From Isoetes taiwanensis (Eukaryota > Streptophyta > Lycopodiopsida > Isoetales > Isoetaceae), in NCBI GenBank assembly GCA_021234155.1, contig JAJEKV010000040.1, forward strand, positions 6,039,278 through 6,103,277: a stretch of 64,000 bases of DNA, written 5' to 3'. The notes under the pieces were generated by a model. The model was not told where the DNA came from, made no database searches, and worked only from the letters and a program-made list of their open reading frames with translations. This document shows positions 3,068-31,956 of this stretch, piece after piece. Made by a program: the position numbers and the translations under genes. Numbering within the stretch: position 1 is the first letter of the stretch; each line of letters starts with the position of its first letter.

Positions 3068-5400
3068 ATGGACGAGGGCGGCGAAGAAGCGGACGCGGCT
3101 GCCGGAATTCGACCTGGGTCCGACCCAGGTGTAATCAACGGGGCTCTATGGCCCCCGAAACGCCCTGCCAACGCCAGTGCAGGCTGGACATCAGCCATCT
3201 GGCAGACCTCAGGGATCTGCAAATCGTCCCCTGCCGATGGGGTTTTCAACAGTTCTGACCCAAAAATTGGGGCTTTTGCCCTGCATAAGGTAAACCATCC
3301 TGCCATTGCTTCAGATAAGAATCTAGGATCATTTGCAGCAGCCCCTGCTCCACATAGTACAAATCATTCCCCAAAGGGCAAGGGAGTAGGTAAGGCATTA
3401 GCAGGGGAAGATTTGGCCTCCAAGGCAAGTGTGAGTGCCATCAGTGCCATCCGAAAATTGAAAACTGCAATGTTAGGGGCAGGGATAGGAGATAGTGCAG
3501 GTGGGCAGAAAAAATTCACACAGTGCAACAGATCAGATTCATCCATGGTATCTTCTCCGTTGGAAGAAGCAGAAACCGAAGTAAACGAAAAAGAACTAGA
3601 TGCAAATAAAAATTTAGCAGAGACGAAGCACCAACAAGGCTCTAAGGAAACGCCCCAGGCTTACAGTTCACCAGCACCACATACCCCTAGGCATAGAGCA
3701 ATCAACGAAACTGATAAGATCATGATGGAGGCTGAAGCAGATGATAATCAGGCATTCCCAAAGGACTTAAACAGAGGTAAGAGTTTTCCCTCTACATTAG
3801 TAGATAATGTGATCTTTCAGAACCAGAAACAGGATAGTGTAGCAGACAAAGTAAGAGTAGGAGAAGACCGGGGCCCGGCTAGAGGTAATGCAAGGAGTAA
3901 TGCAAGGGAGGCTTGGAAAAACAATGACACGATAGCAAGAGTTAACAAGCCTAGATTCTCAGAGTGGATAAAGAATAAGATGCCAACAGAAACAGCCAGG
4001 AGTTTGAGAGTAGAGGCAGCACTTAAAATAGTAGAAGCAGGTTTTGCTCAAGATCTGGGCAAACTGAACAAAGGCCAACTTGAAGAAAATGAAACTGAAA
4101 GTGCTGGAAATATGGAAGTAGACGAGGAGTCTAACTATCCAATAGCAGAGATAGATCATGGTATGCACGTAAAAGTGGTGGAGAACCTGGTATCACGATC
4201 TGTCATTGGTTTCTTTACAAGAGGATTCCTGGACCTCCGAAAACTGGAATACTGGCTCTCAGCACACACCTGAAGAAATTAGGCCTACCTCAACACGAAT
4301 CGCTAAAGGCACTAGGAAGTAACTTCTTTCTCATTCTTTTTTATAGCGAAGCAGTGGTAGATAAGATGGTGTCCCGCGCAGTAGACTCATTCATGGGAGA
4401 ATACATTTTATATCAATATTACTCACCTGGCTTCTCTCCCCATCAAATCTCGGCCATCAAAATTCCGTGTTGGTTAGAGATCGAACACTTACCTCCAGAC
4501 ATGTTGGTACCTGAATTCTTAAAGGTCATTGCTAACACAGTAGGAGCATATATCTCACATTCCATCGTCAAAGGACCAAAGATTTGTGTAGCAATACCGG
4601 CAACATCAGGCATACCTAAAGGGGTGGTAGTTAAGAGTGGCAAATGCTCTTTCAAGTTCCCCCTGAAACTGACCAATAGATGGGAAATATACAGAATGTT
4701 CCCGGACATAAAGATTGAAGGACTAGAAGAGAACCCCCAAGTCAGGTCTAGAAAAGCTGGGACTTCTCAACAACAAGCTCCGACTGGCCTTAATGATCCT
4801 CCCACATCCAATGGTGCACCAGTTAGCCATCCCATCACTCAAGTAAGTATCACCCCATGCGCCCCTAGCCAGGGAGGTGAGAATCACTGCTCCAACATCG
4901 TGGGAAAGCTAGCTAATGAATCGACAATACAGCCCAGTAATCTCACAAGTTTACCAAAAGCAGATGATCAGTCATGGGAAGTGGTAGGTTCCAAACAAAA
5001 AGGGAGAACTAGGAACATTGCTCGGAGGAGCGGAGCACTCCGGTCAAAACCTCTTCCCCAGGCATCTCCGAGTACTCACATTGCTCTAGGAGTAAAAAAT
5101 CCTTTCTCTCAGTACATTCTGGAAACAACAAACACAGAGAAGGGAACACTTTCTGAAGCGGAAGGAGGGATTGGGAGAGATATAGTGGTATATGGGGAAT
5201 TGGATGAAATAGAGAGAGTCATTCTCCCAAACAAAAATAAGTGGGCGGATCTAATGGAAGAGGAGGATAAGGTGGATGAAGACCCCCCTACTCTAACAGG
5301 GAAAAAAAACAAAAAGTTAACAAGCACAAGTCTAGAAGAAGAAGGGTTGGATAGCATGAAAAGGAAAAAGGGTCCGGAAACATCTCTTTATGAATCATAA
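3068..5400 (+). pseudogene. LINE ORF1, DUF4283-like, one frameshift
   Basis: ORF1 encodes the RNA-binding, gag-like protein of the LINE. The first frame runs from ATG 3,068 to a stop at 4,271-4,273. The homologous reading resumes in another frame a few bases earlier (LKKLGLPQHESLKALG at about 4,268 onward) and continues to 5,400. The DUF4283-like core covers about 4,150-4,710, with YSPGFSP and a SHSIVKGPKICV motif. The same motifs occur in the minus-strand fragment at 61,253-61,921, which supports joining the two parts. No CCHC zinc knuckle is visible. The C-terminal third is low-complexity and acidic/lysine-rich. Confidence 0.85.
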
Positions 5401-8400
5401 AATTCTCAGTTGGAATATTAGGGGAGTAAAATCCTCTGAATACAAGAAGAGTAGGTTAGCAAGCACCATAAAGGGGATCAACCCGGATGTGATATGCTTA
5501 CAAGAACATAAGTGCAAAAAGGAAGAAATACATGAGCTGTTCAAAGTAATAGGCAATGAATACGTGGGTATTGCTGCAGTAAAGGAAACTTCTAGTGCAG
5601 GGACCCTCATCGCGTGGAAAAAAGAAGTAAAAGTATGTGAGTCACAGGTAGACAGATTTGGGAGATGGCCTTTAATCTTATGGCAACATGAAGGTAAAGT
5701 ATGGGGCTTGGTGAACGTTTACGCCCATAACAACCCCAGAGGTAGAGGAGCCCTATGGGCCACTCTTAGGCACACATTAAAAGGTTTCGGGAACAAGGTA
5801 GCTTGGCTAATGGTAGGAGATTTTAATGGTGGAGGCAGCTGAGGATAGACAAGGGGTATCATCTGCAATTGTGCATGGGTTTGAGAAAGTACAGTGGTGC
5901 AAACTGTTAGAAGATATAGGCTTCATGGAAGTCGACGGAGATAAGGGCTATACATGGTGTAACGGATGGATAGGCATGGGTAGGACTTATGCAAGACATG
6001 ATAGATGCTACATCAACGATGAGGCACTTACCATCCTTCCAAATGTGCATAGATCCAACCTTCTACAAAATGCTATCTCGGATCACAATCCACAGGTCAT
6101 ATCTACCCAGATTCGCCAGATTAGAACCTCTAAAATAGTATTCAAACTCAACACTAGATATCTGAAAGATCCAGAATTTGTGGAGGCTTGTAAAAGCATA
6201 TGGCAATCCACCTTTAGAACGGGCTCAGGGATGGAAACCATGATAACGGCCCTGGGTAATATAAAAAATTATGCCAAAAGTTGGGGTAGAGCTAAAGTGC
6301 AAAGGGAGAGGGGAGAGTTGGATAGCCTCTACAATCAGCTCCACTCACTTAGAGCATTGGGCCCGAATGATGGGATAGAGGAGAAGGGAATAATAGAACA
6401 GATAAAGGCACTAGAGGAAATCAAGATAATGGAGAACAGATGCAAAGTAGGATTGACTTGGCTAAATGAAGGTGATAAATGCACCAAGTTCTTCTTTAAG
6501 TCAGCTAAAGAAACGAAGAGGTCGTCTACTCTATCATCCATTGCATTAGGCGACGGCTCGATCCCTCAAATCCCCAGGGGATCTAAAAAGGTACTTACAC
6601 AATCATTTCCAAGGTTTTTTTGGGGAACATAACTTGCCATTCCAAGATACATATGAAGAGCTAGTGATCTCAAAAGTTTCATCTATAATGAGCTCTAGCC
6701 AAAAAGATATTCTGAGTCGCTCTCTCTCTACGGAGGATCTTGAAAAAAGCCACCCTCTTATTGGCTAAGAATAAATGTCCGGGTATGGATGGAATTCCCA
6801 TCGAATTCTACCAATGCAATTCGGGAATGGATTAAAAATGATATCTTTTCTGCATACACATACTTCTTGCAAGCTGAAAATTTAAATCCAAGATTGAATA
6901 CATGCTGCATTGCCTTGGTACCCAAGTGTAAGGAGCCAAGCACAATTAACGATTAGAGGCCTATCACACTCCTATCTGCATTTTACAAAATCATAGCCAA
7001 GGCTATGGCAGAGAAGATCAAACCAATTTTAGCGGAAGGTATCTCACAGGCTCAATCTGGCTTCTTACCGGGTAGGAGTATTCTGGGCAATGTGGCAGCA
7101 GCTTTTGAAGGGTTGCACTGGGCCAGAAAAACAGGACAAAAAGTAGCCTATCTAAAGCTAGATTTCACCAAGGCATATGACAGCATTAGATGGAGTTTTC
7201 TGCATAAAATGATGCTCAAGCTGGGTTGTGGGGATATTTTTACAGAAGGGGTAATGAAACTATTGAGATCAGCTCGAGCCTCAGTCTTATTTCAAGGTGA
7301 ATCATCTCTTATATTTGAGATTAAGAGGGGCACCAGGCAAGGTTGTCCCCTGGCTCCCTTCCTCTTCAATATAGCAGCAGAAGCTCTCTCACAGTTATTC
7401 CTGCAAGTATCTGCAGACGGTCTCATTCAGGGACTAGAAATGTGGGACGGTTCTCAACAAATCTGTAACCAGTATGCAGACGACTCATTTCTGTTTATCG
7501 AGGCAGAGGAAAACAATATGTCATGTGCAGGACAACTACTGGCCACCTTCTCAATAGCTTCAGGTTGCCTCATAAATTGGAAAAAATGCTCAGTGCAGTG
7601 GCCTTTGGAGAACATGCATCCCATATGTTTGGAAAGCTTACCATGGAAAATTATCCCAGAGGGTGAACACTCCAGCTTGTTAGGAATCCCAGTGGGCATT
7701 AACATCACTAGTGCACGAATATGGGATGAAATGCTACTAGGCCTACATAAACACCTAAATTGGTGGAAGTAGCAAATTTATCCCTTGCAGGGAGGATTAC
7801 TGTGGCAAAACATGTGCTAAGTAATACTTATGTATATATATCATCAATTCTACTTGCTCCGAGGGAGAAGGTGCAGGAGTTAGAAGGGCTGATTCGAAAC
7901 TTCATCTGGGGAGGTAATGAAGAAGGTGCAACGATCAAAATTGCTTGGTGGAAGTGCAAGAGGGACAAAGCAGGAGGGGGAATTGGTATGTTTGACATAG
8001 TCTTACAGAGCAAAGTATTAATAGCCAAATTCATATGGATGATTCTTCAGGAAAAGGTGAAGTCTCCAGGTTTGCACCTCATCAACCAAGCTCTATTATA
8101 TTCTTGTAAGCATAGTAAGCCCTCCGTCAAGGTCTCGCTTCCATGGTCTCTCTTTTTTTATCTCAAGCCATGTAAAGAAGCCTCCCCCTTCCTGAAGGGT
8201 CTTATTTCGGCTTGGAATGCCATAAAAAAACTTTTCACGCTTGATATCAGCAAATTTAAAGCAGGGACCTCCCCTCCATGGTGGGTACCAGTGGAATTGC
8301 ACAATAAACAAGGCCCATTAGGTATAGTGGCTGACGCAAGGATTGTGAAGAGATGGAAAAACTGTGGTATACATTCTTGTGCTTAGTGGTATATGGGAGA

Positions 8401-14500: not shown

Positions 14501-17500
14501 CAACTAGAGTAGGGTTGATTTGATCTCGTTAATGAGGTGTTTTTATGCTAATGACATCCCAGAGCTTGTCTAAGGAATAAGCATCCATGTACTGCTTCAA
14601 CCAAGTAAGATCTTCATTTTCATTTCCATGAAGATATAGATTTCTAGAAAGCCCACTTCAATAGCCAAGTTTGATATTTCTCCTTTTATCAAGATTTTAG
14701 CTGTTGTTGACCTGTGGCAAGTGTGTACATCAAGATTGGCAAACATGTATCCCACATATGCATCATCTTTAAGTAGTAAAGCTTATGGTGTTCCATTTCT
14801 GCCTATTGATCTGACAAAATTCTTCCTCCTACAGGAGGATGTGATATGGAACAATAGTCTTGATCCATAGTGCTCACGAGTCAAAAAAGCTTTCAGAACA
14901 ATGTAGTATATGTTCATAGGATCCCACACCTCCACACACTATAGAAGCATTGGCTCTACTAATACACAGAACAAATGTGTCTAGTGGGACGAAGCGTAAA
15001 GCTTTGTTATTTTGCATAGTATATAGAGTCTTCCAGCATGCAATTATGTTGTTCTGCATACAATTGTCTCAATGTATATTAGTCATGAACTCAACCCTGA
15101 CATACTTCTATATTTCCAGGACCTGCATAAGCCCATTATTGTAGAGATTAAAAAACCTTGCTCGAGGTTCTTTGAGGGGAAAACCTTGGCAGTAATGAAT
15201 TTACTGTGATGAACTGTACAACCCGAGATATTGCTTCAACCGAGTTTGTGATCTTCAATGCTCTCTGCACTTATATGCATGTCTGTTTCTGCACATTCTT
15301 CTAGAGAACCAACCTATATGTTTCTCCTTCCAACATGCTTTAAGACGTTGTGGACCCATGGTCATTGCGTAAGTAAGGTTTGAAAGTTGAGTGTTTGTCT
15401 CGTTATGGACCCATGGTCATTGTGTAAGTAAGGTTTGAAAGTCGAGTGTTTGTCTCCTATATTGACCACCTCCAAATAGTAGATCATGTATCATTGTAGG
15501 CCAACATGTTAAAGAGAAATGAATCATGTCTCTTGAAGAAGAATTGGATATGGGATTGTGAACTTGAATCCAAGAGCCCAAGTCAGAAAGGCTTTTTGGA
15601 TGTGTTCCAAGTCTTCCCAAGTGGGAAGTGATATGAATGGATCCCTATACTTTCATCCCATAATAACAAAACCAATATAAAAAAACATAAAACAAGTGTG
15701 CCTGATGTGACCAATCATAAAGCTCTACATTGTGGCAATTGATCTGCATGGCGTAGAAATCCTTCCAACTTGCAGTCATTCATTGTCAGATATAGGTGGC
15801 CCAGTATGTGGTGGTTGAAATCTCCACTCCAAGGTATTTAAATGTTTGCAACACCTCTTCATTTTGTCTTTGATAGGTGAACAAAAGATTTCTGTACTGC
15901 CTAGAAGAGTATATTAGGAGAACCTTGGTCTTGGCCATGTTGACCCACATTCTAGTGTTCTGAAGAAGGTACTGAGTGCATCCAGATGCTGCTACATACT
16001 AGCAAGGATGTACGCTAAAATATACACATCATTTGCATATATTAACTGCCTAATGATGTAATAAAACAAGTCAGGTCCCTCTGACTCCATGTTGAGCAAG
16101 CCAGTCCTCGAGCTGATCAATGTATAATAGAACGCTCAAGGTTATACTAGAGATAACAATAGGCTAGAGGAAAACATTATGTAATAAGGTCTGAAGAAAG
16201 AAGCTGCTATAGGCTGGCTACAATTGTCACAAAGACTATTGATACCAATCATGGGACTATATGGAAATATGGAGGCAAGAGTGAATTGGTACAAAGATGG
16301 GATAGAATGCGACATCAGAAGATATGCATGGTTGTCCCACTACATCTAATCACTGGATTGTATGTAGATGCACTGGGGAGATTTAGAGCAAAAAAATTGA
16401 ACGCTGCAGCAAGAATGCACATGTTACAGGTGGCCACAATACTATATGCAGATGATTTGCTATTGCTAACAACAAAAACAGAAGGAATGATGTGATAATC
16501 CTTTGCAAACTACCTTCAGCTGTCTTACCCTTCACTATATCAATTTGTCTTAAGATTTCAAGCATGTTTCTATAACATTTTGGAGGTTGTCTAGAAAGGC
16601 TCCTATGTTTACCCCTTTAGCTTGGTTCTTTTTCTTCGTAGATATTTCGTAAACTACTGGGATGAATGACATGTCTATCTATCTACTAATCCATGTGAAT
16701 CTCAGACCAAAATGGATGTGCAATGCTTGTTTGTTTGTTTGTGTGAAATGTAAACTTATATTAGAAAGTCTATTTTGAAAATTCCTTTTTAACATATTAT
16801 ACCCCAAACTATTAATGGAGGAAAAAAAAATTGGGATTCCTTACTTACATGGCTTCAAGATTTGTCAAACGCCACAAAGTTGAAGGTATTTTACCTTGAA
16901 ATTTATTCCCAAAGAGTCTCCTGACATGGTTAACTAAGTTCTTCTCTAGTATAACATAACGAGCAATACAAAAATAATAACTCACAACTTGGATAAGGCT
17001 GTCATATTTCCAAAAATCTCTGGAATTGATCCATTCAAATGATTGTTGTTTCCATAACTAAAAATAACATACAACGTGTCCACATTAAAATGGAAAAACA
17101 AAAATGAAAAAATATATATCATACTATATCACATCTATATTCTTATATTTTTCACTATCTAGAACGCCGGTTCAGATCCTATGGCTCACGTCGCTTTGGG
17201 ACATATCTTACGGCCCAGATGGCTTGGGAGTTTGTATGTAACATATGTAATTGATCCTACGGTCCAGGATTGATTTGATCCGATCCGATCCTACGTTTCA
17301 GATGGCTTGACAGTTTATATATAATGCATCCTATGGTCTAGATTGATCTGATCCTGATCGTCGATCCGAGATCCTACAGCTCATGTTGCTTTAGATATAT
17401 CATACAACTCAGATGGCTTGGAAGTTTATATGTAGACGATTCTACAGTCTAGATTGTTCTTGATCTTAATCATCCATTCAAGATCCTAAGGCTCACTTGC

Positions 17501-20500
17501 TTTAGACTTATCCTATGGTCCAGATTGATCCTAATCCTTGGTTCAAAATCCTATGGCTCATATGTTACATTGCTCGAGCCTTGGTATTTTCAATTAATCT
17601 TAGGAAGAGGCTTTGAAAAGTTTTTAATGTTCTAGAAAGTTCTTTAATGTTCTAGAAAGTTCTACAATGCGTCAGAATGTTCTAGAAAATTCTAGAATGT
17701 TCTAGAACACTCTAGAATGCTGTAGAATGTTCTAGGATGTTTCAGAAAATTCTACAATGTTTAAGATTGTTCTAGAATTTTTGATAGGGATGTGATCTGA
17801 ACTGTTAGATCTGGTGGCCCATCTCATCTATCCATTTGTGCACAAATATCCCACATGCATTTATGCAAAAAAGAGGCCCATTTTCCAGCATTTAAGGGAT
17901 CCTTCCACATGAGGATGGGCATTCTGGTTCAGACTAGAATGTTCTAGAATGTTTTAGAAAGTTCTAAAATGTTCCAAATAATTTTGGAGGGTTCTAAAAC
18001 ATTCATGAGTCTTTTATATTGTTCTAGAATCTTCTGGATTATTCTAAAAAGTTCTAAAATCTTCTAGAATAATCCAGAAAGTTCTAGAATTCTAAAGAGT
18101 ATCTAGAATGTTCTAGAAGACTCCAAAAAGTTGTAGAATCTTCTAGAATCCTCTAGATTGTTCTGAAAATTTCTAGAATTTTCTTAAAAGTTCTAGAAAA
18201 GATTCTAGATAGTTCTACAACATCTTCTAATCTCATAAAATCTAGGAGAATCTAAGGGCATCTTTGAATGGCAGGCTGGGGATTCTTACAGTGCAAGGGC
18301 AACATGCATTGAACCCCCACAAAAGCTCCCTTCCATCTGAATCCTATAATACTGAAACCTTAGTGATAGCTATCAAGGATATCTAACTTATAGTGAACCA
18401 GAGGACCTCATTTTAAATAATAACTTCAATTGATGAACCATCATTAGCATGCTACATTCTTGATTAATACTGTTTTTTCTTAATAACAACACATGGTGAA
18501 CCATCATCCATAACATGCTATATCTATATTCAATATAAACAAGATGGTAGTGCAGTGCCGTAGACACCGCACTTGTTGTAATGCTTGTAGATCGTCTCAA
18601 GAATTTGTGTTCTTTTGACTAACATAATTTTTATATTGCTCTATGGCACCGTACTTGTTGTAATGCTTCTGGATTTTAGTTGAGCTTTCGAGAATTTGTA
18701 TTCTTTGTAGTGACACAATTTTCAAATTGCTTTAAATAGGAACTCTTAACATCAAATGTAAATTCCTGAAAATTAGAAGCTAAGTAGAGTATTTGTAGTA
18801 TGCACTAGTTGTTCGTTTGTCTCCTGTCATAAATGTGATAATTGAGAAGAGTACATAGCTCTTCTAAATATTAGAAAACATGATATTATATTGTAGATAA
18901 AAGTATTGAGTTGAAAGACAGGTTAAATTCTTGAATTTTACACGCACTGCAGCATTTGAAGATTTTAGAGTAGGTGCATTATTTGAATATTTTAGAGTAG
19001 GTGCCTTAGATTGAATCAACTTTTCTTAATGTTTAGCCCTTTCCTTCTAAAGGTTCAAACGAACCTAAACTTTAGACTATGCCCTACAAAGACATCTTAG
19101 ATTGCACTACAAACTGAATAATGCAAACATTGCAGGCCGGAATAATTATTGAAACCGCGGACTGAAGTAACTATTTCAGATCTTGAGCTCTTGCAAAATC
19201 GAGAACCTTCGAAAGATAAATTCAGATTAAAAAAATCTAGGATTGATGCTTTCTTTTCCTCTTTGCCAGAAGTTCGTCAGATATGAGATGTTTATCTTGG
19301 TTATAATATTTCATGCTGTCAAGACAGGTCCAATTACATCTAGTTTTAAATCCCAGTAGCAGTGGAGGCAGTGTAGAGTGTTGAGTACAAGAAGGCTTCA
19401 AGAACCCTTGGTTGAAATCTGCCTGATTATTTATAAACTTCAAGGGGCAAAGAACATGCCCCTTTAGCATCTGTATGGCAATGACGTCTGAAGCTTCTAG
19501 AAGAAGCAACAATTCAATTACACGTCATTTCAAAAAAAGAAGTGGATTTCTTACTGTGGCCACCTGCCTTTTGACCAAAATTGACCATTCGCATGTGTGC
19601 ACATCAACTCTGCATTAAAATAGGCCGATGGACTTGGGAGGCACGTGAGGACAAGATCTGTCAATGCTGCTAATAGAGCGCCATTGAGAATGAATGCCAT
19701 GCCTTCAGACCTGTCCAGCATTCGATAATATTGAGGCACAATATATCCATGCAGTTTTGCTGGGCCAGCCTTACATGTGCTATTGAGCACGACCTCCGTG
19801 GGCTTGCTAGGTTCATATCTTCAAGAGGTCATGGCTACGTAGACACAACTGGATTTTCTGGTACGGTATTGGCTTGACTTGTGTTATATTATATCATTGT
19901 ATAGTCTACGAGTATATTTATTACTGCCAAGATATTTTCCCCAAAACCCTTTGGAACAGGAGCTTTTAATCCTGATAGTAATACGCTTGCTGCTCTCTTT
20001 TGTGGGTCCCATAGGCCAATTGGTCTCTAGGGATGATAAAAGTCACCTACAATCTAGTTGGTTATTGTGTCAATCTGGGACCATCATAGGCTGCACATTT
20101 TCTAAGGCATTTATTCACCTTCTTATAATGTTATTGTTGTAGCCTAGGCTAAGATATTGATGGCTTATAACTCTTCCTCCCTCAGGGGAGAAGTGAGAGA
20201 CCATATTTGGATTCAGTATCTTTAGATTAATTCTTATCATTAGTCTCCTATGTTGGAGTAAGTACATAATGCTATAGTGTCATAATCCAAGAGCATTTTT
20301 ATGTGCTTATATAACTACATGAGATATGTACATCTTGTAACGTTTATTTTTTATCAATAAGATTTTTGTCCTTAAAAAAAAAAAAAGAAAAAAAAAGCTG
20401 TTCTATTCTATTCTATTCTAATTATTCTATTCTATTCTATTCTATTTTGTTTTGTTCTGTTCTATTCTTCCCTGTCATAAACACTTGTGATTGCAGACCC

Positions 20501-23500
20501 TCATGTTTCATGCCCTTATGTCTTGTTGTTGAGGTAAGACCCTTATGTCTTTATGATAGATTGTAGTTTGGTTAAGTTTGTGAGTGCAGGCAAGTTTTTA
20601 TCAGCATCGCCAAGGTGCATCATAACATGTTTATATAGAATAGACATATATGAGGATCGGTATCATTAGCTTTGTCCAAAACCTTGTTGTGCTCAACTTG
20701 CTATAGAACTCTATCTTGACTGGTCTTACTATTATCATTAGGGTTTTTTCTCAAAAACTCGAAAGAATGAAGTATTTTTAATCCCGGCTATAATGGTTTA
20801 AACTTTATTGTACTTTAATGTAGTTTTAGTGGAGATGCCATGGCCTTTATTTCTTCTTTAAGTTACTTACTAGTTTTGACAATTGAATTTGTCTTCACAT
20901 AACGAGTCTATCACAATTTTACTCACAAGTCACTTAAGCTTGTAAGACCACCAAATTCGCTAGGAATCTCTCCTTCAAATCCATTGTCATCGAAGTAACT
21001 GCAGAAAATTGTATCTATTACTAATTAGGTACATTGTAAATGAATCAAATAATGTAGAAATAGAACATAAAATAATTATAAAAAGAATGTAACATTGCTA
21101 TTATTGTTTGTTAGTATGTATTACTTCATTCACTAGAGAAGGTGGAAGTGCAAAAGGAGATGTGTGCATTCTTCATCATCTACTGCATTTATCCATAGCT
21201 GTCGTTGGCTTGCAATCCGCAATAGTATAGAGCTATGTCATCCATTGAACTAGGTCTGCTTGAGAAAAGTTTAAAATACCCGCATGGAATTTTAATTTTT
21301 TCCAAAACCTTTTTGGATCTGATTCTATCTGCTCAATGACTATTTTATAATGTTCTCTGAGCCATTTCCTTTTCTTTTTCATGATCAGCCTTTTATAGGC
21401 TTTTTGAGCCATAGCCTTATTAGAAGCACTATGGAAAGTGTGCTTAGGTGCTACACATTCAGCATCATATATTTTTTGGATTTATAACTCGAATTATAGC
21501 ATTTCATATATCCAAATATGTTGCATCATTAAGAACTAAGCTCTTCAAAAGCTCATCCATATCAGCAACATGGCCAATTAGCTTTCTCAGTGGCAACAAT
21601 TAGAGTTTTTTCATAGTTCTCTGCAAAGTGGTATGACATGCAAAGCTTAGAAAGAGATATACCTTTCTTGCAGGCACGTGGAATTGGTAGATTCAATTTA
21701 AGTGCAAGTTGAGCATGATCTAAATCCACATGATGACCAAGAACTTGGAAATTTGTCACTACCAATTGCATGCTTTTGGCCTGTCTAATAGATAATCAAC
21801 CACACTCATACCATTCGACTGGAAATAGGTGAAGCCACTAGATTTGGAAATAATTGCGTACCATTATAAATTATCAATTCAAATGCTTCATATAGGTTGA
21901 GAGTATGCTCACCCATATGACTTACATTGTGCACATCCTGAGATATCCATCCATATGAGGCATCAATCTCTATGTGTGACTTCTCCTGTAAGAGCAATTG
22001 CTTGTTTACCTTGTAATTTCTTGTTCATGTCTGCTATGATATACAATAATAGTATGTTCCTTTGGAAAGAAAATGGCAACCACCAGTAGATAGCGCACAA
22101 AATGGATCTTGGGGATGTAAGTCTAGGCTTTTATAAACGTATACTGGTTGCATCCCAAGAGGATCATAATATACAATTACGATATATATCTTATCCCACA
22201 AGCAAATCCACAAATATTGCTTATGTTTGCATTTCCCCACCACTTTAACTGCTTTGTAGATCACATGTATAACAATACAAGCATTGCCTCCCTATCCCTA
22301 CAGCCATCCAATTCATTCCACATAGATTCCAATAGAGTAAAGCCAGGAATATTGATTAGTCTGTTAGTCTTTTGCTCCCAAGTTTTTGATAATGCAAGGA
22401 TTTCAAATTTACTAAAGAAATCTAAATTGCTCAATAACTTTGTTTCCAAGAAACCATGAATGTTCCAAGCCAATAGTGAACTTTTAAATCACACAGAGGT
22501 TTTGTAGAAAAGAGCAATGTGCCATGCAATGGGTGATCGTCATTCCAACTCTAGAGTGGAGTATTATGGGCTCTATAAGACACATTGCTTCAAGAAATAT
22601 AGCTCCACAAGTTCAATGATAGCCCTATGATCTATACAAAAGAAGATACAGATAATTTCTTCTTAATTATCTTGTTATTTTCTTTTAAAGAATGACATCT
22701 TATTATCCAAAATAGAGAATACAAAGAACACATGTTTTTGTCTACTGGTGCAACAGGTACAAGAAGATGGAACTAGAATCTCAAGAACAAAACGAGACAA
22801 TTTTAATAATAGGAATCAATCTGAAGTAACGAAGCAAGGCACGATTTCTTGCCTCTGGCCATCAATATTCTAGCTTTGGCAATGAAATAATGCCATGAGA
22901 TTAAGCCCGTGACGTTCTCAAATCAACCACAAAAGCCAAGATTTGCTTAGCTGAGGGCCATGCATTTGGATACGATGCTAAAAGAATATATTGGATAATC
23001 CAAATCACTATATAATAAGCCACGTAATCAGGCCCATGTTACTTGGACCTCTAAATATTTGAAAGACCAAAGGGCATAAAGCAGAGATGTGCAAATCATG
23101 GCAATGGCAGAATGATTAACCGCGAGGAATCCTTATACATAAAGGGGGTATAGCATCTACGTACCCTTGAAGGTAAACCCCTTTTGTACATGCAATTTCA
23201 AACTGCAATTTGACCCCTCCCCATATAAAATATATAATAGATCACTAAATGTACATAAAGTAATGTCCCAAAAACCATCCCCTTGTGAACTGTCAAAGGT
23301 TATACGCAAATCAAATGTGATTCCTAAAGGCATCAATACATAAGCGCATGTGAATAATATGCTATGGATTGAGGCAGATAGATGGGAGCAGCCGCAATTG
23401 CGACGAGAAGCGAGATTTTGTGCATGTTCCCAGTTACGAGTTATTGAAGATGAAAACCATATCGTTTAGTGATGTCTTGCTTTTTGAGATGGTCAGGAAT

Positions 23501-26500
23501 CATTTTTTGACCTTAGTCCTACAACTTCTTGGAACACATCTGTGTATGACTTAGCATTATATATACGTGAGGTTCTAGATAAGCGTCTTCAATTGCTGAG
23601 TATGGTCTCCTTATTTTTTCTTGATTGTCTAGTATCATCATTACTGCAAAGGTTTTTCCCTTGCAAACCTTTCGAGGCAGGGGTTTTTTAATCCTAGTAG
23701 TAATGGTTTGTGGATGTTAAAAAATCTATTCTATTCTATTCTTCTCCTGTGGGATTTGTAGTTGCCATCGATTTGATACTATTGGGCATCTACTGTGAAG
23801 ACAATATGCAAATCTGGTAAAATACTTGCCACGACGGACATAGTAATTGCAAGTCCATCGAGTCCCCTTCCATAACCTCATCCTCCACTATAAGAGGCAT
23901 GTTCTCTTCCACCTTCTCCCATTGTGTCACATTTGGAGCTCAATCAAGACGTGAGGTGAATAAATCTAGATTGAGATGATAAATGTTTGATTCCACAGGT
24001 GGGAGAGTTGACACAACAGCAACCCAAACAATCAATAGCCCTCGCAAGAAAGGAAAAACTTTTGGGAATGGTTGACCATAGCTAACCCAGGTTTTAATTG
24101 TATTCTTGTCAAATGAGTTGCATTGATGAAACAAGTGCTAGAGAAGATGCAGATTGGCGAATCATCATCATTATTGAGTAGCCTTTAAATAAAATTGAAA
24201 ATTAGAATCTTCCTACGCAGCAAGAATCCATCATACTCAAACCACCTCACCACTTGGGGTAAGATACATTTGGACCAGACCACCTTCCCTCCTTTGTACT
24301 AATCCAAAAGATATTCTTGACTACTTCAATGATTTCTAGCACCTTAACCTGTAGAGCTAGCAATAAAGGAGCTAGTAGACATGGGTACTACTGAGCATAG
24401 ACTTGGCTATTGCAATGAAGCCTTCAAGAGTCAACTTAGCAGTATTCTACCATAAAAGATGTTTCTTCAAGCCTGTAAGAAACTCTTTCCATGGAGTATT
24501 AGCACTAACATGAATACCAAAAATCATCCCGAACACCTAGGTGGCTTGTCCATGTACAAGAACTCCACAAATGAGCATGCATACATGCTGGACCCAAAGA
24601 ATCTAGAGTCCAAAGAGTAGTACACTTCAAGAAGTCAACAAGAATGAGTCTAGAAGCAGTTTTACAGTACCTAAATTCTTGAGTTGGTCAATAGAAATAA
24701 AATGAGTCATTTGCATATTGATTACATATTTTGTGTGTGCCATCCTTCATAGGTAGAACTAGAAGAAGCTCCTTTATTGTTGCAACAAAAAATAACCAGG
24801 AAAGAGCCTCCTCCATGGTACTAATTAGAAGAGGAATTGGCACCTTTGACAAATACTTGACTGAGCAGCTCATAATGACAGAGAAAAGCAGCCCGAGCAA
24901 AGAAGTACGGCTTCTTATCTAGTATAATAACAAGGGAATTGCTTTTTGTATTTTTATGCATTTTTCAATACTGTTTTGCATTGTTGGTTAGTGTGTTCAA
25001 GTGGATGTACTAATATGTACATCTAGAGTGCACAAAGTATTTCCATGTCCTTCCTTGATTGTTTAATGCATTTCCCAATGGTTTACATAGATATGTAATA
25101 TTTTTATGCATGTTGTATCAGAATTATCATACTTTGTGCATGCACACGTGCTGCAACATCTTTTTAGGGTTAGTTTAGGATTGTGCCTTATCATTTTGTG
25201 GCTATTTTCATGTAAGAAAGGACAAAATTGAGAGAACAATCAGACGATGCTGGATCCCGAGCTTTAAGAGATCCTACAACCCTTTTGTTTTGGAGAAGCA
25301 TCTGGTTCCATTCTCGAGGTGGATTTCGTGGCTAACATAATTCAATATAGCAACTATCCATTCCATCCCATCAGGTATAACAACCCTCTAATCCTATTGA
25401 TCTATCCGTGAAGACAGCCCTCGAGTGGATTATGGGAAAAAACCCTCCAGGCCGACAGGTCGAGAGGGTTAATTTCATCATGGAGGGAACGGTTGGCCTC
25501 CTTAACCACAGGCCTCGAGTCAGTTGAACTTAGCCTCTCTTAGCTCGGAATGAATGCCCCGGGATGCCTATCAGTTTTCCTTGCTATTCTTCTGCAGAGC
25601 TTTTTTTCCTCTTTTTTGTTTTGAAATATTTGTTCAATGGGGTTGATTGCTTTGCCAAACCATCTCTTCTTCAATCTTTGTTCTGCTCTTGGAAGCCAAT
25701 ACTTCATCTTTAACCACAAGCCTGGAACTTGCAACTCTCTAGTTGCAAACCATATACCTTTTCAAGAGATTCTAGAACATTCCAGAACTTAGGTGCATGT
25801 GTGACACTTGGCGCGATCTCATCCATTAAAGTAGTGCGACTCTGACCCTTGGTCTAGATATGTACAGAGGAGTCTCATTCTTGTCGAACCATTTCAGTTC
25901 AATGCCAATCTTGAGCTTTCTAGCTTGTATTCTGCTCTGATTTATCAAGTATTTCCAGTGTTCCAACATATTCTTTGTGTATCACTCGTCAATTTTTCCT
26001 TGTTTTCACATAGGTTTGTGATAGCTTGAACCAGAATCTCTTACTATTTCTTGTCTGCTCTAAGTATTTCTTTGTTCATATTTGATTTTTATCCTCATGG
26101 AGGATATTTTATCCTTGTTACAGTATGTCCAGCAGCTTGCGCAAGTGTGTCAGCAGTTGCCATTAGATAATGAGGAGCTCAGGGAGGTAGCTTCTCATGA
26201 GTTAGCCTATATATAGCTCTGGATTGATGCTGTCAGAGTCTATGATCAGCTTGTTAGATTAGTTTGACGGTGAACCAAGGTTTGCAGGATTTTGTATTGG
26301 ATCCCGCCTGTGATTCAGCTCCATCCACATAGGTATCATATTGGATCAAGAACAAGTTGGACTGATTGACAGAAAATAAAACATCTTAACCCTCTTCAAA
26401 GCCACTAATAGTAGGATCTATGGCAAGTGCCACAAAGGTTACTTATGTACTAAAGTTGCAGATATGCAAAGGATTTCCCTTGAAAACCATTTGAGGCAAA

Positions 26501-29500: not shown

Positions 29501-31956
29501 AACACAAACCATTACATTAAAATCCCCCTATTCACACGGGGGGTGACGTAGGGAGCGGGAGCCCCTAAAACCGTGTCATACATGTATAAAATCAACACCA
29601 TTTAGTACATTGCCACAAATCTTATAGTATTTTGCAAGCCTTGCTATACAGTATACCAAAACTTCTACGAGCATATCCCCAAATGAGGATCGTTATCTAC
29701 GGTCTAGATTGAGGAGTAACTTGCAAATATGCCCATCCAACAGCTCTCGATGCCCGAAGTTACCCCCCGTGTGAATATGCACCCAAACCAAAGGGGGTCT
29801 CAGGGGGATTTTAATTTAAAATGTTGAATATATAATGGTTTTTGTTAATTTAAAAACTAATACTTATCATGAGGGCATGCAATATAAAGTGAATGCGGGT
29901 AGGGTCCATATAATAGTATAATGTATGCACCTTCTAGGATATAAAAAGCACTATTTCTATTTCATTCTTTACCATTAAAGTTTGATTACTCTAAGTGAAT
30001 GTTAAAAACCTATTATTCCTACTCATAAACCGAACCTATTCTTGAATGCTAGAATAGCCAAATATGATCAGTTTATCTGGCATTTGCCCTCTAAGTTGGT
30101 TGTTCACAGTTTAAAACCAATCAAAACATTTTCCAATGCCCTTGCCTGCTGCCCTTTTGGCCTTGGGCGAGAAATTTATGCACTGCTACTCACGCTCTAC
30201 AAATGAGGACTTCCTTCATTTCCTCAACTTCAATAATCTTTATGCTAGAACTGCTCAAACTCTTGCTCTTTGAGCAATTTGGAAGCAAATGACAAGGGTA
30301 CATCATGCCCAACCTTATAGCATCAATTGGCTCAAAACCTGTTTTCACACCCTTATGGGAAAAATTGTGGCACACATAAAATCATAAAGCTCTAGTTTAT
30401 GATCAAACTTGAGACACAATTGGCAATTATTAGGGTTCGTTCCCCTTTTTTTAGGATGTCCCTTGTTAATGATGATTCTCTTCAATGATAAAGTCCGTGT
30501 GCAAATATACTATATTAGTGATTCCACCATGGTTTCCGGATCCTGCAATTTCAATTCCAAAGCCGAACTTGGTAAAATGGCCGGGTTCAATCATTGCGTC
30601 AATTGAGGCAGCTGAAGCAAGAGATGGTCATGCAAACTGCTTTGGACATTATTTTGGAGAATGATGATATTTGATGGTGGAACAATCTCAGCCCCTTCTT
30701 TGTGCAGAAGAGAGAGGTGCATTTTCAGGTTACTTTGAGCCTTATTTTGCAATTCAAGGGTAATCCATTCCATTTGGATTAGCTGACACAACTTGTAATA
30801 TTATTTAGGGTGATCCTATGGGATTCGAGGTTTGTTCCTTTTTACATGTAATATATTTTTGCCTTAACCTCTTAAAAAAAAAAGAAAAAAGAAATCTACT
30901 TTAATTTCCACCACTAAAATTTGTTTATTTGATAAAGTCGATACTTGGTTGTATTTCATGTTTTTTGAAATATGAATAAACTATTATCACTTTTAAACTT
31001 GTGAATCTTAATCTTGTATCTTATACTTGGTTTTTAACATTGACTAAGATGAAAGTTTAGAATTCTTACAATCCTTGCAAGTTCCTGAGGTTACCAATTT
31101 CTTTAGGTAGTCTACCAGTGAAGTTGTTTAGGCTTATACCCCTGTAATTACCTTAGTATTAGCAAACCATTCAAAAGATCAGCAAGGAATAAATTCAGAT
31201 CAAGGAAATACTTACATTGATTTCAAGTTAGACAAGTTGCCTATTTGAGGAGGCAAAGTACCAGAAAATTTGTTTTTTCCAAGTGAACTAGTTGTATAAT
31301 AGAAGACATAAAATGTTTATAATCAGTTTATCATGATTATAAGTAATAAATTGCTAGTAATGACACCCCTCTCACAGGTAGATCAGTGGCAATCGAGAAA
31401 TTTCCTTTGGTATGGGCCCTGTGAGCATGTTTTGTGCCAAGTTTCTGATGGAAGAAAGGATGCGAAATAAACAAACATTGAATATCCACAATGTTAAGTC
31501 TAGGTCTTACAGATCTGCAAGCTTAGTAAAATTGCCAATCTCAGGTGCTATTTGACCTGCAACATTCATGCTGACAATATATCTGCAACACAAATGGATA
31601 AGAGACGGATGAAAAAATGATGCATATATTACCATTACATCTTGGTGATATGACAAGTGTTGTTGGTGCAAGTATTGCATTCCACTCCGGCAAACTGAGA
31701 CCATAGCTGCAATTGTTTGGGGAGAGCCCATGATGAACATGGATCGCTAGTATTTGTGAAGTCCCAAAGAGCAAGGCCATTGCCCACAAGTTTGTCATGA
31801 AATACTTTCAGCAATTTCACTGTAAATGTCAAAAGCAAACATGAAATATCAAAGAATCATGAATTCCCTCTTTTGCCTTTTACCTTCAGTTTGATCAGTA
31901 ATCCCATAAACGAAGCTAGCCAGACAGAGCAACCATAGAAGAACCAAATGATCCAT
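11124..31956 (-). CDS. Malectin/LRR receptor-like kinase paralogue, 3' part missing, probably decaying
   Basis: Sixteen exons assemble on the minus strand: 31,956-31,884; 31,819-31,639; 31,582-31,511; 31,444-31,376; 31,287-31,216; 31,141-31,070; 20,998-20,927; 17,057-16,986; 16,920-16,849; 13,861-13,787; 13,715-13,644; 13,555-13,484; 12,066-11,995; 11,908-11,843; 11,654-11,587; 11,515-11,124. Joined, they give about 524 residues: signal peptide MDHLVLLWLLCLASFVYG, a Cys-rich N-cap (CNTCTNNTCHITKM), about 12 LRRs and the first malectin exon. Exon phases match the plus-strand paralogue (LRR introns phase 2, malectin exon ending phase 0). The expected second malectin exon, membrane helix and kinase are not in the window. 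Exon 14 has no GT donor. The family is the plant LRR-VIII-2 class of receptor kinases. Either the kinase lies beyond position 1, or the gene is truncated; I favour a degenerating copy. Confidence 0.85.
11820..11908 (-). pseudogene. LRR exon 14 with missing splice donor
   Basis: The exon begins after GGACAG and reads DISYNKLSGLVPTWPNTSGLLA, matching [18 protein letters not shown] in the paralogue. Where the paralogue has GT at the exon end, this copy has AT (TTAGC|ATATAG). No in-frame GT follows before a TAA at about 11,827. Read-through would give a secreted LRR-only protein ending here. The next exon (11,654-11,587) is still in the right phase. Confidence 0.7.
12305..12890 (-). mobile_element. 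LINE 3' fragment (microsatellite-tailed family)
   Basis: On the minus strand, from high to low coordinates: an EDHNHLKQY...GKLWDASALINIK-like stretch (about 12,850-12,760), a zinc-motif relic of the EDECR type near 12,560, and then the conserved 3' box (GGTTTTCCCTCAAAAACCC and GGGGTTTTTTAA) at 12,355-12,305. It lies in the intron between exons 12 and 13 of the minus-strand gene. Too broken to code. Confidence 0.65.
13126..13374 (-). other. Unrecognised coding-like stretch
   Basis: One minus-strand frame reads GFTYIFNGTLWNFTTLPIAA and continues with few stops for about 80 codons, but I do not recognise the family. It lies between receptor exons 12 and 13, next to a GGCA/GACA tetranucleotide run (about 13,328-13,355). 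Possibly part of a decayed transposon. Confidence 0.25.
14540..14650 (-). mobile_element. LINE coding relic
   Basis: The minus strand reads ENEDLTWLKQYMDAYSLDKL followed by WDVISIK, which matches the EDHNHLKQY...KLWDASALINIK relic at 12,760-12,850. It is a second, independent fragment of the same LINE type, inside the intron between receptor exons 9 and 10. Confidence 0.5.
15147..16150 (-). mobile_element. LINE reverse-transcriptase fragment with 3' end
   Basis: On the minus strand the palm motif appears as YANDVYILA near 16,030, followed by MAKTKVLLIYSSRQYR and YLGVEISTT. This is the usual order after the YADD box. The family 3' box (GGTTTTCCCCTCAAAGAACC, AAGGTTTTTTAA) closes the element at about 15,190-15,147. 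A 55-bp tandem duplication (15,351-15,460) lies inside. It sits in the intron between receptor exons 9 and 10. Many stops. Confidence 0.75.
15351..15460. repeat. 55-bp tandem duplication inside LINE relic
   Basis: TGGACCCATGGTCATTGCGT at 15,351 recurs at 15,406 as TGGACCCATGGTCATTGTGT. The two units are nearly identical through GTGTTTGTCTC, so the duplication is recent relative to the decayed LINE around it. Confidence 0.9.
16286..16495 (+). mobile_element. LINE reverse-transcriptase fragment
   Basis: The plus strand has an open frame containing ILYADDLLLL at about 16,437-16,466, the catalytic palm motif of reverse transcriptase, with about 45 codons of upstream RT-like sequence. It is opposite in orientation to the adjacent fragment at 15,147-16,150, so it is a separate insertion. 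Confidence 0.6.
17165..17590. repeat. GATCCTACGG-type tandem repeat, locus 1
   Basis: Degenerate units alternate GATCCTACGGCTCACGTTGC-like and GATCCTACGGTCCAG-like boxes. Several spacings are close to 110-112 bp (for example 17,372 to 17,482 and 17,328 to 17,440). The array runs straight into the TTCTAGAATG satellite, the same order and strand as at 36,070-38,402. It lies in the intron between exons 7 and 8 of the minus-strand gene. Confidence 0.8.
17600..18250. repeat. 10-bp TTCTAGAATG satellite (heat-shock-element array), locus 1
   Basis: A decamer with consensus TTCTAGAATG or TTCTAGAAAG repeats in 10-bp register, for example 17,630-17,777, with degenerate stretches and an interruption at about 17,780-17,930. 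Because the unit is TTCnnGAAnn, the array contains exact heat-shock-factor sites: seven alternating GAA/TTC units with 2-bp spacers at 17,675-17,707, and three-unit sites at 17,630-17,642, 17,650-17,662, 17,937-17,949 and 18,106-18,118. Confidence 0.88.
19550..20060 (+). mobile_element. LINE 3' fragment (microsatellite-tailed family)
   Basis: The plus strand reads RWTWEAREDKICQCC then AIENECHAF, a relic of the C-terminal zinc motif of LINE ORF2, at about 19,640-19,720. The conserved 3' box follows: TTTTCCCCAAAACCCTTTGG at 19,936, TTTTAATCCTGATAGTAAT at about 19,966, and GGGTCCCATAGGCCAATTGG ending GATGATAAAAG at about 20,042. It lies in the minus-strand gene's intron between exons 7 and 6. 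Confidence 0.7.
20150..20396 (+). mobile_element. Retroposon 3' end with poly(A)
   Basis: A non-coding stretch ends TCAATAAGATTTTTGTCCTT followed by an interrupted A tract at 20,374-20,396. This is the 3' end of a poly(A)-tailed LINE or SINE of a different type from its neighbour. Confidence 0.5.
20401..20470 (+). repeat. (TTCTA)n microsatellite
   Basis: About 10 tandem TTCTA units grading into TTTTG/TTCTG variants, directly after the poly(A) tract. The same pentamer forms the tail of the LINE 3' ends at 23,655, 26,470 and (reverse strand) 50,809. Confidence 0.9.
21290..22480 (-). mobile_element. LINE endonuclease and linker fragment
   Basis: On the minus strand, from 22,473 downward: an endonuclease-like start (AWNIHGFLETKLLS, ILALSKTW), then LWICLWDKIYIVIVYYDPLG, an insert with DASYGWISQD, and a linker reading ESDPKRFWKKLKFHAGILN at about 21,300. 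Order and motifs are those of the AP-endonuclease and linker of a LINE ORF2. It is split by stops and frameshifts. Located in the intron between minus-strand exons 6 and 7. Confidence 0.75.
22481..23654. other. No gene recognised
   Basis: AT-rich intron sequence with no clear coding sequence or repeat. Some of it may continue the LINE at 21,290-22,480, but I see no motif that proves it. Confidence 0.4.
23655..23745 (+). mobile_element. LINE 3' terminal box with (TTCTA)n tail
   Basis: Contains GGTTTTTCCCTTGCAAACC, GGGGTTTTTTAATCCTAGTA and TGGATGTTAA, then (TCTAT)n. It matches the 3' box at 26,470 and 49,298. No coding part is attached, so this is an extremely 5'-truncated copy. Confidence 0.75.
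23935..24905 (-). mobile_element. Decayed copy of the poly(A)-tailed LINE ORF2
   Basis: The minus strand reads EALSWLF, then MKDGTHKICNQYANDSF at about 24,700, which matches the GLEMWDGSQQICNQYADDSF block of the LINE at 3,031-9,304. Further downstream, FPFLRGLLIVW at about 24,050 matches SPFLKGLISAW of the same element. The catalytic YADD is YAND here. Stops and frameshifts throughout. Confidence 0.75.
25230..26350 (+). other. Coding-like, unidentified; one isolated heat-shock element
   Basis: The plus strand at about 26,100-26,270 reads EDILSLLQYVQQLAQVCQQL and on to ELREVASHELAYI before a stop, which could be part of a retrotransposon gag, but I cannot name it. At 25,770-25,787 the sequence TTCTAGAACATTCCAGAA is a perfect four-unit heat-shock element outside the satellites. 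Confidence 0.3.
26470..26612 (+). mobile_element. LINE 3' terminal box with (TTCTA)n tail
   Basis: GGATTTCCCTTGAAAACCAT, TTTTTAAATCCTAGTAATAA and GGATGTTAACAAATT are followed by (TTCTA)n. It is the same family end as at 23,655, including the GGATGTTAA box before the tail. No coding part. Confidence 0.75.
27086..27214. repeat. Strong 51-bp hairpin with 27-nt loop
   Basis: The left arm (27,086-27,136, starting ACGGAATGGGGTCA) and right arm (27,164-27,214, ending TGACCCCATTCCGT) are reverse complements with about four mismatches over 51 bp. A partial third copy of the arm (CCGGATTCTACAGGT) lies near 27,238. It could be a foldback element or a precursor-like hairpin. It lies in the large intron between minus-strand exons 6 and 7. 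Confidence 0.85.
27364..27946. repeat. 291-bp tandem duplication
   Basis: A unit starting GGGCTC at 27,364 is repeated from 27,655 with high identity through GCTCCAATAGCAGCT. The unit carries AGAGCTCGAGCGGATCCGAA and a TCTGTTACTTTGAATGCCAT end. The resulting ORFs have no recognisable domain. High identity indicates a recent event. Confidence 0.9.
28000..29480. other. No gene recognised
   Basis: AT-rich intron sequence. A plus-strand frame at 29,200-29,385 reads GKQLHMELFLNKKDVAALAL without a recognisable family and is probably a relic. Duplicated AATCTTGTGTGCTA segments occur near 29,111 and 29,150. Confidence 0.35.
29491..29855. mobile_element. Foldback/MITE-like inverted-repeat element
   Basis: The left end TTTAAATTAACACAAACCAT pairs with the right end ATGGTTTTTGTTAATTTAA. 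Inner pairs include TTAAAATCCCCCT with GGGGGATTTTAA, and CACACGGGGGG with CCCCCCGTGTG. The interior is non-coding. A T-tract of about 22 nt abuts the left end. I could not define a target-site duplication. Confidence 0.7.
30560..30890 (+). mobile_element. Retroposon 3' end with poly(A)
   Basis: Ends GTAATATATTTTTGCCTTAA followed by CCTCTT and an A-rich tract from 30,874. The upstream 300 bp has coding-like fragments but no clear motif. Interpreted as the 3' end of a poly(A)-tailed non-LTR element in the intron just before receptor exon 6 of the minus-strand gene. Confidence 0.45.

Follow-up and report, generated by a model that had tools for sequence, protein, structure and literature searches.

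What do tandem heat-shock elements do inside the receptor genes of a lycophyte? The window, by which we mean the whole stretch of 64,000 nucleotides of Isoetes taiwanensis analysed here (GCA_021234155.1, contig JAJEKV010000040.1, positions 6,039,278 to 6,103,277 of the forward strand), carries arrays of a 10-bp unit in which TTC and GAA modules alternate, and an original prediction, made from the letters of this stretch, had read them as an intronic satellite that might act as a heat-responsive enhancer, as a silent sink for heat-shock factors (HSFs) or as a regulator of the introns that hold it. Our analysis favors a different reading, to which we assign roughly four chances in five: the arrays form the tandem-repeat interior of a non-autonomous, Helitron-like element, which is dispersed through the genome and mostly passive now.

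Decamer arrays in the window and their host genes

The proposal that the unit is a heat-shock-element module stands, and its core equals the tripartite motif TTCtaGAAnnTTCt given for HSFA2 and HSFA3 of Arabidopsis in the accessible part of PMC10230730. Decamers of the TTCTAGAATG type form two decayed arrays, A (about 17626-18209) and B (37435-38400, the more decayed of the two), in agreement with the number foreseen; TRF resolves them into four period-10 stretches (17626-17778, 17934-18198, 37435-37491 and 37576-37634), and counts against 100 dinucleotide shuffles of the 64 kb bear them out (Table 1). Thus, TTCTAGAA occurs 31 times in the window (shuffled mean 1.80), three-module sites 26 times (shuffled mean 0.92) and four-module sites, TTCnnGAAnnTTCnnGAA or GAAnnTTCnnGAAnnTTC, nine times (shuffled mean 0.02, maximum 1), with 14, 13 and 4 of these, respectively, in region A (17600-18260) and 8, 8 and 4 in region B as counted (37400-38050). 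The module runs of B start at 37445, 37514, 37576, 37601, 38184 and 38357, and isolated four- and three-module sites lie outside both arrays at 25770-25787 and 19490-19502. We call both arrays decayed because the exact decamer is rare there, with two occurrences in A and four in the B region over both strands; the array expected at 17600-18250 is real, although decayed and split by a linker. Runs of three to seven modules in the window, and of three to six in five copies of the element described below, nevertheless reach the at least three contiguous alternating nGAAn/nTTCn modules that make a heat-shock element. The further claim that the 10-bp period puts every site on one face of the helix holds for modules of the same orientation, which recur every 10 bp, but not for the inverted ones, which in a 10-bp repeat lie half a helical turn away. 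Rfam gave nine matches over the arrays, all far below gathering scores, on which account a reading as tandem-array RNA was dropped; these matches probably follow from the self-complementary unit.

Table 1. Coordinates of the features recognised in the window (positions within the 64,000 nucleotides).
Feature	Position	Strand	Basis or remark
LRR motifs at one side of array A (host receptor gene)	16857-16901, 16994-17038	-	regular-expression scan
5' part of copy A: degenerate 5' end and start of ~113-bp repeats	17127-17434	+	69.9% identity to first 356 bp of intact L033 element
~111-bp tandem repeat block, copy A	17298-17506	+	TRF
Decamer (heat-shock-element) array A1	17626-17778	+	TRF period 10, 15.3 copies
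Seven alternating GAA/TTC modules, unbroken; longest run in window	17675-17707		
Non-repeated linker A1/A2, ~155 bp	17779-17933	+	also in other copies of copy A's subfamily
Decamer array A2	17934-18209	+	TRF 17934-18198 and sequence
LRR motif, other side of array A	20935-20979	-	regular-expression scan
Copy B, 5' end TCTAACATATATATGTTCTTATG after A, at 36061	36061-38021	+	exact 5' end
Later insertion inside copy B	36382-37160		gap between aligned parts; apparently inverted ends, by eye
Decamer array B	37435-37635	+	TRF; scattered units on to about 38400
Five alternating GAA/TTC modules, B run	37601-37623		

As had been suggested, the arrays probably sit in receptor introns, those of two LRR genes that lie next to each other and whose putative models come from a regular-expression scan for LRR and malectin-type motifs. 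Array A lies between minus-strand LRR motifs in a putative gene that also has a malectin-type motif, and array B is flanked on the plus strand by LRR and malectin-kinase motifs: before it comes an LRR motif at 35086-35130, the last one found on that strand, and after it, at 49940, one of malectin type, and these are probably parts of one receptor gene. The LRR motifs at 31078-31268 and 33544-35130 would belong to two receptor genes with very large introns, apparently arranged head to head. By eye, open frames at 3068-8386 resemble a LINE-type retrotransposon (endonuclease, reverse-transcriptase-like).

The arrays are part of a dispersed element

When positions 17100-18350 were compared with the genome, the best 40 of 2696 first-look candidates yielded 132 matches, the best-scoring of which span the decamer module and the linker (query positions 527-1164), the ~113-bp repeats being covered by separate matches. 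A shared 5' terminus was found by comparing the left ends of matched copies, and twelve loci were fetched, picked since this terminus precedes a perfect decamer dimer in them. Four of these copies (L033, L036, L039 and L040) are 92.0-93.8% identical in pairs over about 1.4 kb and differ in their flanks. The intact copies examined measure about 1.40-1.46 kb and follow a fixed order, namely the 5' end TCTAACATATATATGTTCTTATG, the ~113-bp repeats, the heat-shock-element decamer block, decamers of the AATCTAAGGG type and a 3' end closing on GGACGCATTAAATTTCTTG; several clusters of three to six modules are found in each of five copies examined. Genome-wide (G000), the exact 22-bp 5' end CTAACATATATATGTTCTTATG occurs 289 times and the exact 20-bp 3' end GGACGCATTAAATTTCTTGT, a pattern that includes the flanking T, 674 times, the reversed control being absent in both cases. 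Five copies, one with nested sequence, have no long open frame (stop to stop, 79-155 aa). By eye, a tRNA A/B-box-like sequence is seen on the reverse strand at about 491-550 of the L033 element and about 37265-37340 of the window; ARAGORN and Rfam returned nothing for these boxes at four loci.

The termini are constant and point to a Helitron-like insertion. TCTAAC preceded by A opens all twelve copies, which had been selected on CTAAC and onward with the preceding AT left free, and TTTCTTG (in some, TTCTTG) followed by T closes ten of the twelve, L031 and L037 having no comparable 3' end; an A thus precedes the 5' end in 12/12 and a T follows CTTG in 10/10, placing insertion between A and T. 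The 5' TC of Helitrons is accordingly present in every copy, while the CTRR of their 3' end is replaced by CTTG in all ten copies with a comparable 3' end; CTTG appears as an alternative end in some Helraiser-mutant insertions and in maize Helitrons, to judge from the part of PMC4778049 at hand. The 3' hairpin is weak: Helitrons typically carry one of 16-20 bp some 11 nt from their 3' end, and here a 4-bp stem whose loop is interrupted precedes the end by 11 nt (fold energy -2.5 to -3.0 kcal/mol). Terminal inverted repeats score 12, no better than the shuffle means of 11.0-11.7, in 5/5 copies.

A comparison with empty sites concerns one filled locus, L039. With its joined flanks as query, the best 40 of 3583 candidates all cross the junction, and in nine of the 12 that were aligned there is no change of length at this point; L049 has two extra bases at the junction, L046 and L050 have two a few letters further on, and several sites differ by single mismatches. 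At L039, set against 12 of 40 paralogous empty sites, there is no target-site duplication, although the target is a TA run, in which a shift in run length could hide one of 2 bp, so that the comparison is less sharp than one at a unique target would be. The three other pairs of joined flanks had no match among those listed. Taken together, the 5' TC, the insertion between A and T without duplication and the lack of inverted ends form the signature of a Helitron-like insertion. We say Helitron-like rather than Helitron because CTRR is missing and no RepHel partner could be linked: the RepHel domain PF14214 is abundant in the genome (best 150 of 1813 candidates scored), and none of these 150 was linked to the ends of the family, 100 of the 674 3' ends having been seen. 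One candidate for an autonomous partner, a RepHel match on C908 amid perfect decamer dimers, was found to be unrelated; in the surrounding 25 kb no end of the family turned up, even with 4 errors allowed, and nothing matched the L033 element, while three places there adjoin AG-rich simple repeats.

A foldback transposon, suggested by the two inverted arms of the L026 region (67-69% alike), was rejected as the basic form, since independent copies are single-armed with constant, non-inverted ends and loci of this type resemble tail-to-tail pairs. At L026-L028 such tail-to-tail inverted arms, again 67-69% alike, lie within larger duplicated segments, and the right arm of L026 seems, by eye, to be broken by copia-like sequence.

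Both window copies are old and incomplete, with no 3' end of the element recognised in either of them. The L033 element aligns to parts of the A arrays in addition to the 5' part of copy A, and to copy B at 84% (36084-36378) and 76% (37161-38021). The insertion that separates these two aligned parts, with apparently long inverted ends, is possibly a MITE. A and B differ in subfamily and in their orientation relative to the gene. As both are transposon copies, their position in introns is explained by insertion, and the idea of an intronic satellite has to be given up: in place of independent long tandem arrays, the decamer is found inside a dispersed element to which both arrays align. The element would have inserted between A and T without target duplication, as judged from one locus against 12 empty sites, and two copies, now old and incomplete, would have landed in the probable introns of neighbouring LRR receptor genes.

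Heat-shock-element chains across the genome

The comparison of genome-wide density with a control, which had been recommended together with the prediction, reveals a great excess of intact modules, the six-module pattern TTCnnGAAnnTTCnnGAAnnTTCnnGAA having 2017 sites against 5 for its reversed control in the 1.66-Gb genome (overlapping windows counted separately). The 50 sites listed (contigs C1-C102) fall into about 30 clusters; 18 of the sites are followed, 574-1072 bp downstream and in the right orientation, by an exact 3' end of the element, and in 17 of these 18 paired sites the distance is 574-748 bp. Of ten other six-module sites, picked by hand from those lacking such an end, seven have flanks that match the family strongly (E at most 1.4e-55), whereas three (L077, L080 and L081) have short weak ones only. 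Perfect decamer dimers, moreover, follow a 5' end within 1.5 kb in 29 pairings, all 29 on the same strand and none on the opposite one (100 listed of 281 dimers and 100 of 289 5' ends); 16 of the pairings come from a single tandem array on C423, leaving 13 independent of it. We infer that most, perhaps not all, of the six-module excess is made up by this Helitron-like family.

The C423 array (104344-114415, L086) consists of head-to-tail units of ~634 bp, 86-94% alike among the six examined. In each unit, which opens with the 5' end of the element, element sequence that includes a single four-module heat-shock element is joined to other sequence, and shortly before the following unit comes a hairpin whose stem measures 9 bp. 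The array has the appearance of a satellite, or of a rolling-circle concatemer, born from part of the element. On C908 (15.730-15.755 Mb, L053-L055), a seemingly different repeat has AGAACCTTCTAGAATGTTCTAGAATG directly before long AG-rich simple repeats, and may represent another family that carries a heat-shock element.

So many sites invite the view that they form a sink, in which HSFs are titrated by the arrays, and 2017 six-module sites in one genome, even with overlapping windows counted separately, speak for it. Transposon copies are, however, usually methylated and closed, and we regard titration, a reading made from the letters of the genome, as very improbable.

Decay of the modules

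Whether the modules are maintained was asked of 691 complete units in 49 arrays, the columns being shuffled within each array so as to give the expectation under independent decay. Intact TTC was observed 435 times against 439.0 after permutation (ratio 0.991, z -0.9) and intact GAA 411 times against 413.2 (ratio 0.995, z -0.4). The excess of intact modules over the decayed-decamer expectation, whose absence was to count against the prediction at the sequence level, is therefore not there, and the modules are not conserved above background. In the same units, TAG and AAT occur slightly more often than expected (ratios 1.045 and 1.054, z 3.9 and 2.9) and ATG less often (0.853, z -4.4).

Retention of single letters leads to the same view. 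Over the 691 units, G6 is the lowest core letter (0.771), T1, A8 and C3 are retained at 0.815-0.818, the spacer letters T4 and A5 at 0.874 and 0.897, and T2 and A7 at 0.948 and 0.945. In a relaxed set (n=570) the losses at C3 (0.219), G6 (0.239) and A8 (0.261) exceed those at T4 (0.132) and A5 (0.139), whereas in 36 distinct strings few positions fare better than C3 and G6 (3 and 4 losses), with 7 losses each at T1, T2 and A8 and 6 and 5 in the spacer; for units between intact neighbours (n=48) loss is 0.170 at module positions and 0.177 in the spacer. The ranking of positions thus shifts with the sample, but the absence of a module advantage does not. A hint of constraint may be seen in the C423 array, where seven blocks are invariant and the longest of them, of 63 bp, contains the four-module site, identical in 6/6 units; but it is a weak hint, since 99 of 642 18-column windows are invariant there. 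The result as a whole is drawn from decaying resident copies, and selection may have acted in the past on source elements.

It is against these figures that a functional role in the receptor genes has to be weighed. An intronic enhancer that binds HSFs in heat, regulates the receptors and has been kept for that purpose could draw on the runs of seven and five modules that survive in the window copies, on a core equal to TTCtaGAAnnTTCt (PMC10230730, as far as its text was at hand) and on the Caenorhabditis case, in which HSF-1 binds heat-shock elements within Helitrons that the title of the paper credits with diversifying the heat shock response (PMC6927752, seen in excerpt). Yet intact module triplets are as frequent as independent decay would have them, losses are much the same in modules and spacer, no core letter is kept less well than G6 over the 691 units, transposon insertion explains the location, and A and B belong to different subfamilies and are oriented differently relative to the gene, all of which makes a maintained enhancer scarcely credible. 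For the two receptor genes of the window, the finding is an ordinary one of old insertions, with family modules that show no constraint.

The decamer is, nonetheless, TTCTAGAA-nn in tandem, so that in a well-preserved copy three to six intact modules stand together at several places, to which HSFs should bind. Binding of the arrays is hence plausible on the strength of their letters, and would occur at well-preserved clusters once the chromatin is open. As the modules decay without detectable constraint in the sampled resident copies, most copies are likely passive; those of the window and most others would be bound by HSFs only now and then, in heat, and the receptor genes would hardly be affected.

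Origin of the match to the heat-shock element

Passivity of the resident copies is the more likely reading, and the way in which a transposon came to hold heat-shock elements is a separate matter, for which two explanations can be set out. According to the first, the tandem block of a Helitron-like element happens to match the heat-shock element and HSF binding plays no role. Tandem blocks also occur in rice Mothra, a non-autonomous Helitron of two tandem-repeat blocs (PMC4683698, from the portion available), and no module constraint is seen over the 691 units. A random decamer of uniform bases fits TTCnnGAAnn in some phase roughly 1 time in 400 by simple arithmetic, a figure that can be turned either way: chance could supply the match, but the prior is only about 1 in 400 per decamer. 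Chance also has to account for the TA spacer, which matches that of the plant motif as well, and for the module chain of the apparently unrelated C908 repeat in the same genome. On balance, we see the odds of coincidence as about even.

The second explanation holds that source elements tied their transcription or mobilisation to heat through the arrays, as ONSEN does, the present copies being debris. The several three-to-six-module clusters in each of five copies fit such a past, and so do two plant precedents: some wheat Feng Helitrons carry predicted nTTCnnGAAn sites in a family mobilised by heat plus reduced methylation (excerpts of PMC13286980), and ONSEN has a heat-responsive element in its LTR (the section of PMC3907296 at hand). 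On the other side, a promoter in an element with no long open frame (79-155 aa) would have nothing to drive in cis, the 150 scored PF14214 candidates included no autonomous partner carrying the arrays, and the array, 574-748 bp away from the 3' end in 17/18 cases, does not occupy a known promoter position. That heat drove the mobilisation of source elements we consider rather unlikely.

HSP20 genes of the same genome, taken as a source of native heat-shock elements, provide little by way of comparison: three-module sites were found in 0/10 of their upstream stretches, with a start codon found for 4/10 and the gene starts uncertain, and among 12 upstream regions, whose gene starts are likewise uncertain, L073 was the only one in which a four-module match came down to two mismatches (shuffle P 0.05).

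The boldest construction combines these threads. A plant Helitron-like family would have turned into a heat-linked transposon and seeded most of the about two thousand six-module sites of the 1.66-Gb genome, convergently with the Helitrons of Caenorhabditis, its active copies being mobilised by heat and some landing sites rewired to HSF; we think this improbable. The more sober significance is that most of the very strong heat-shock-element chains sampled in the genome come from one transposon family, whose hundreds of sequence-defined copies provide the means to ask whether transposon-supplied HSF sites are bound, silenced or used.

Comparison with known systems

No report of plant Helitrons with heat-shock-element arrays was recognised in the open-licence literature, surveyed mostly by titles and the starts of abstracts, and the matches listed for TTCTAGAATG deal with other subjects only. 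The related systems below are described as their accessible parts present them. The HSFA2/HSFA3 sites of Arabidopsis share with the decamer both the core and the TA spacer; they lie near transcription starts and their binding was measured, whereas the sites described here are predicted ones in intronic transposon copies (PMC10230730). ONSEN/ATCOPIA78 is likewise a plant mobile element that uses HSF sites, but it is an LTR retrotransposon with the element in its LTR promoter, for which HSFA2 binding in vitro and HSF dependence were shown (PMC3907296).

Among plant Helitrons, rice Mothra resembles the present family in being high-copy and non-autonomous (1252-2741 bp), in its two tandem-repeat blocs, in its 5' TC and in its A/T insertion without target duplication; in contrast, it ends in CTAG with a 16-bp hairpin, and a heat-shock-element array is not described in the part of PMC4683698 that was available. 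The wheat Xuan-Feng Helitrons are linked to heat, have predicted nTTCnnGAAn in the promoter regions of Feng3-6 and Feng8 and insert at AT, but they possess canonical ends (TC, CTAG, 17-nt hairpin) and a known autonomous partner, and what could be seen of PMC13286980 describes no array.

The closest counterpart is that of Caenorhabditis, a Helitron-type element with dense heat-shock-element clusters, whose motifs are noted in the paper as consistent with tandem overlapping elements; HSF-1 binding was seen there, unlike the predicted sites of a 10-bp tandem decamer in a plant (PMC6927752). That paper, in its accessible part, confines Helitron heat-shock-element enrichment to Caenorhabditis among the genomes tested, in a tree that the legend calls metazoan. 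A plant case placed beside this Caenorhabditis-only survey would suggest that the association between Helitrons and heat-shock elements arose more than once. Hence, Helitron-borne heat-shock-element clusters are known from Caenorhabditis and a Helitron with tandem blocs is known from rice, and what is new is a plant Helitron-like family in which heat-shock elements come as arrays.
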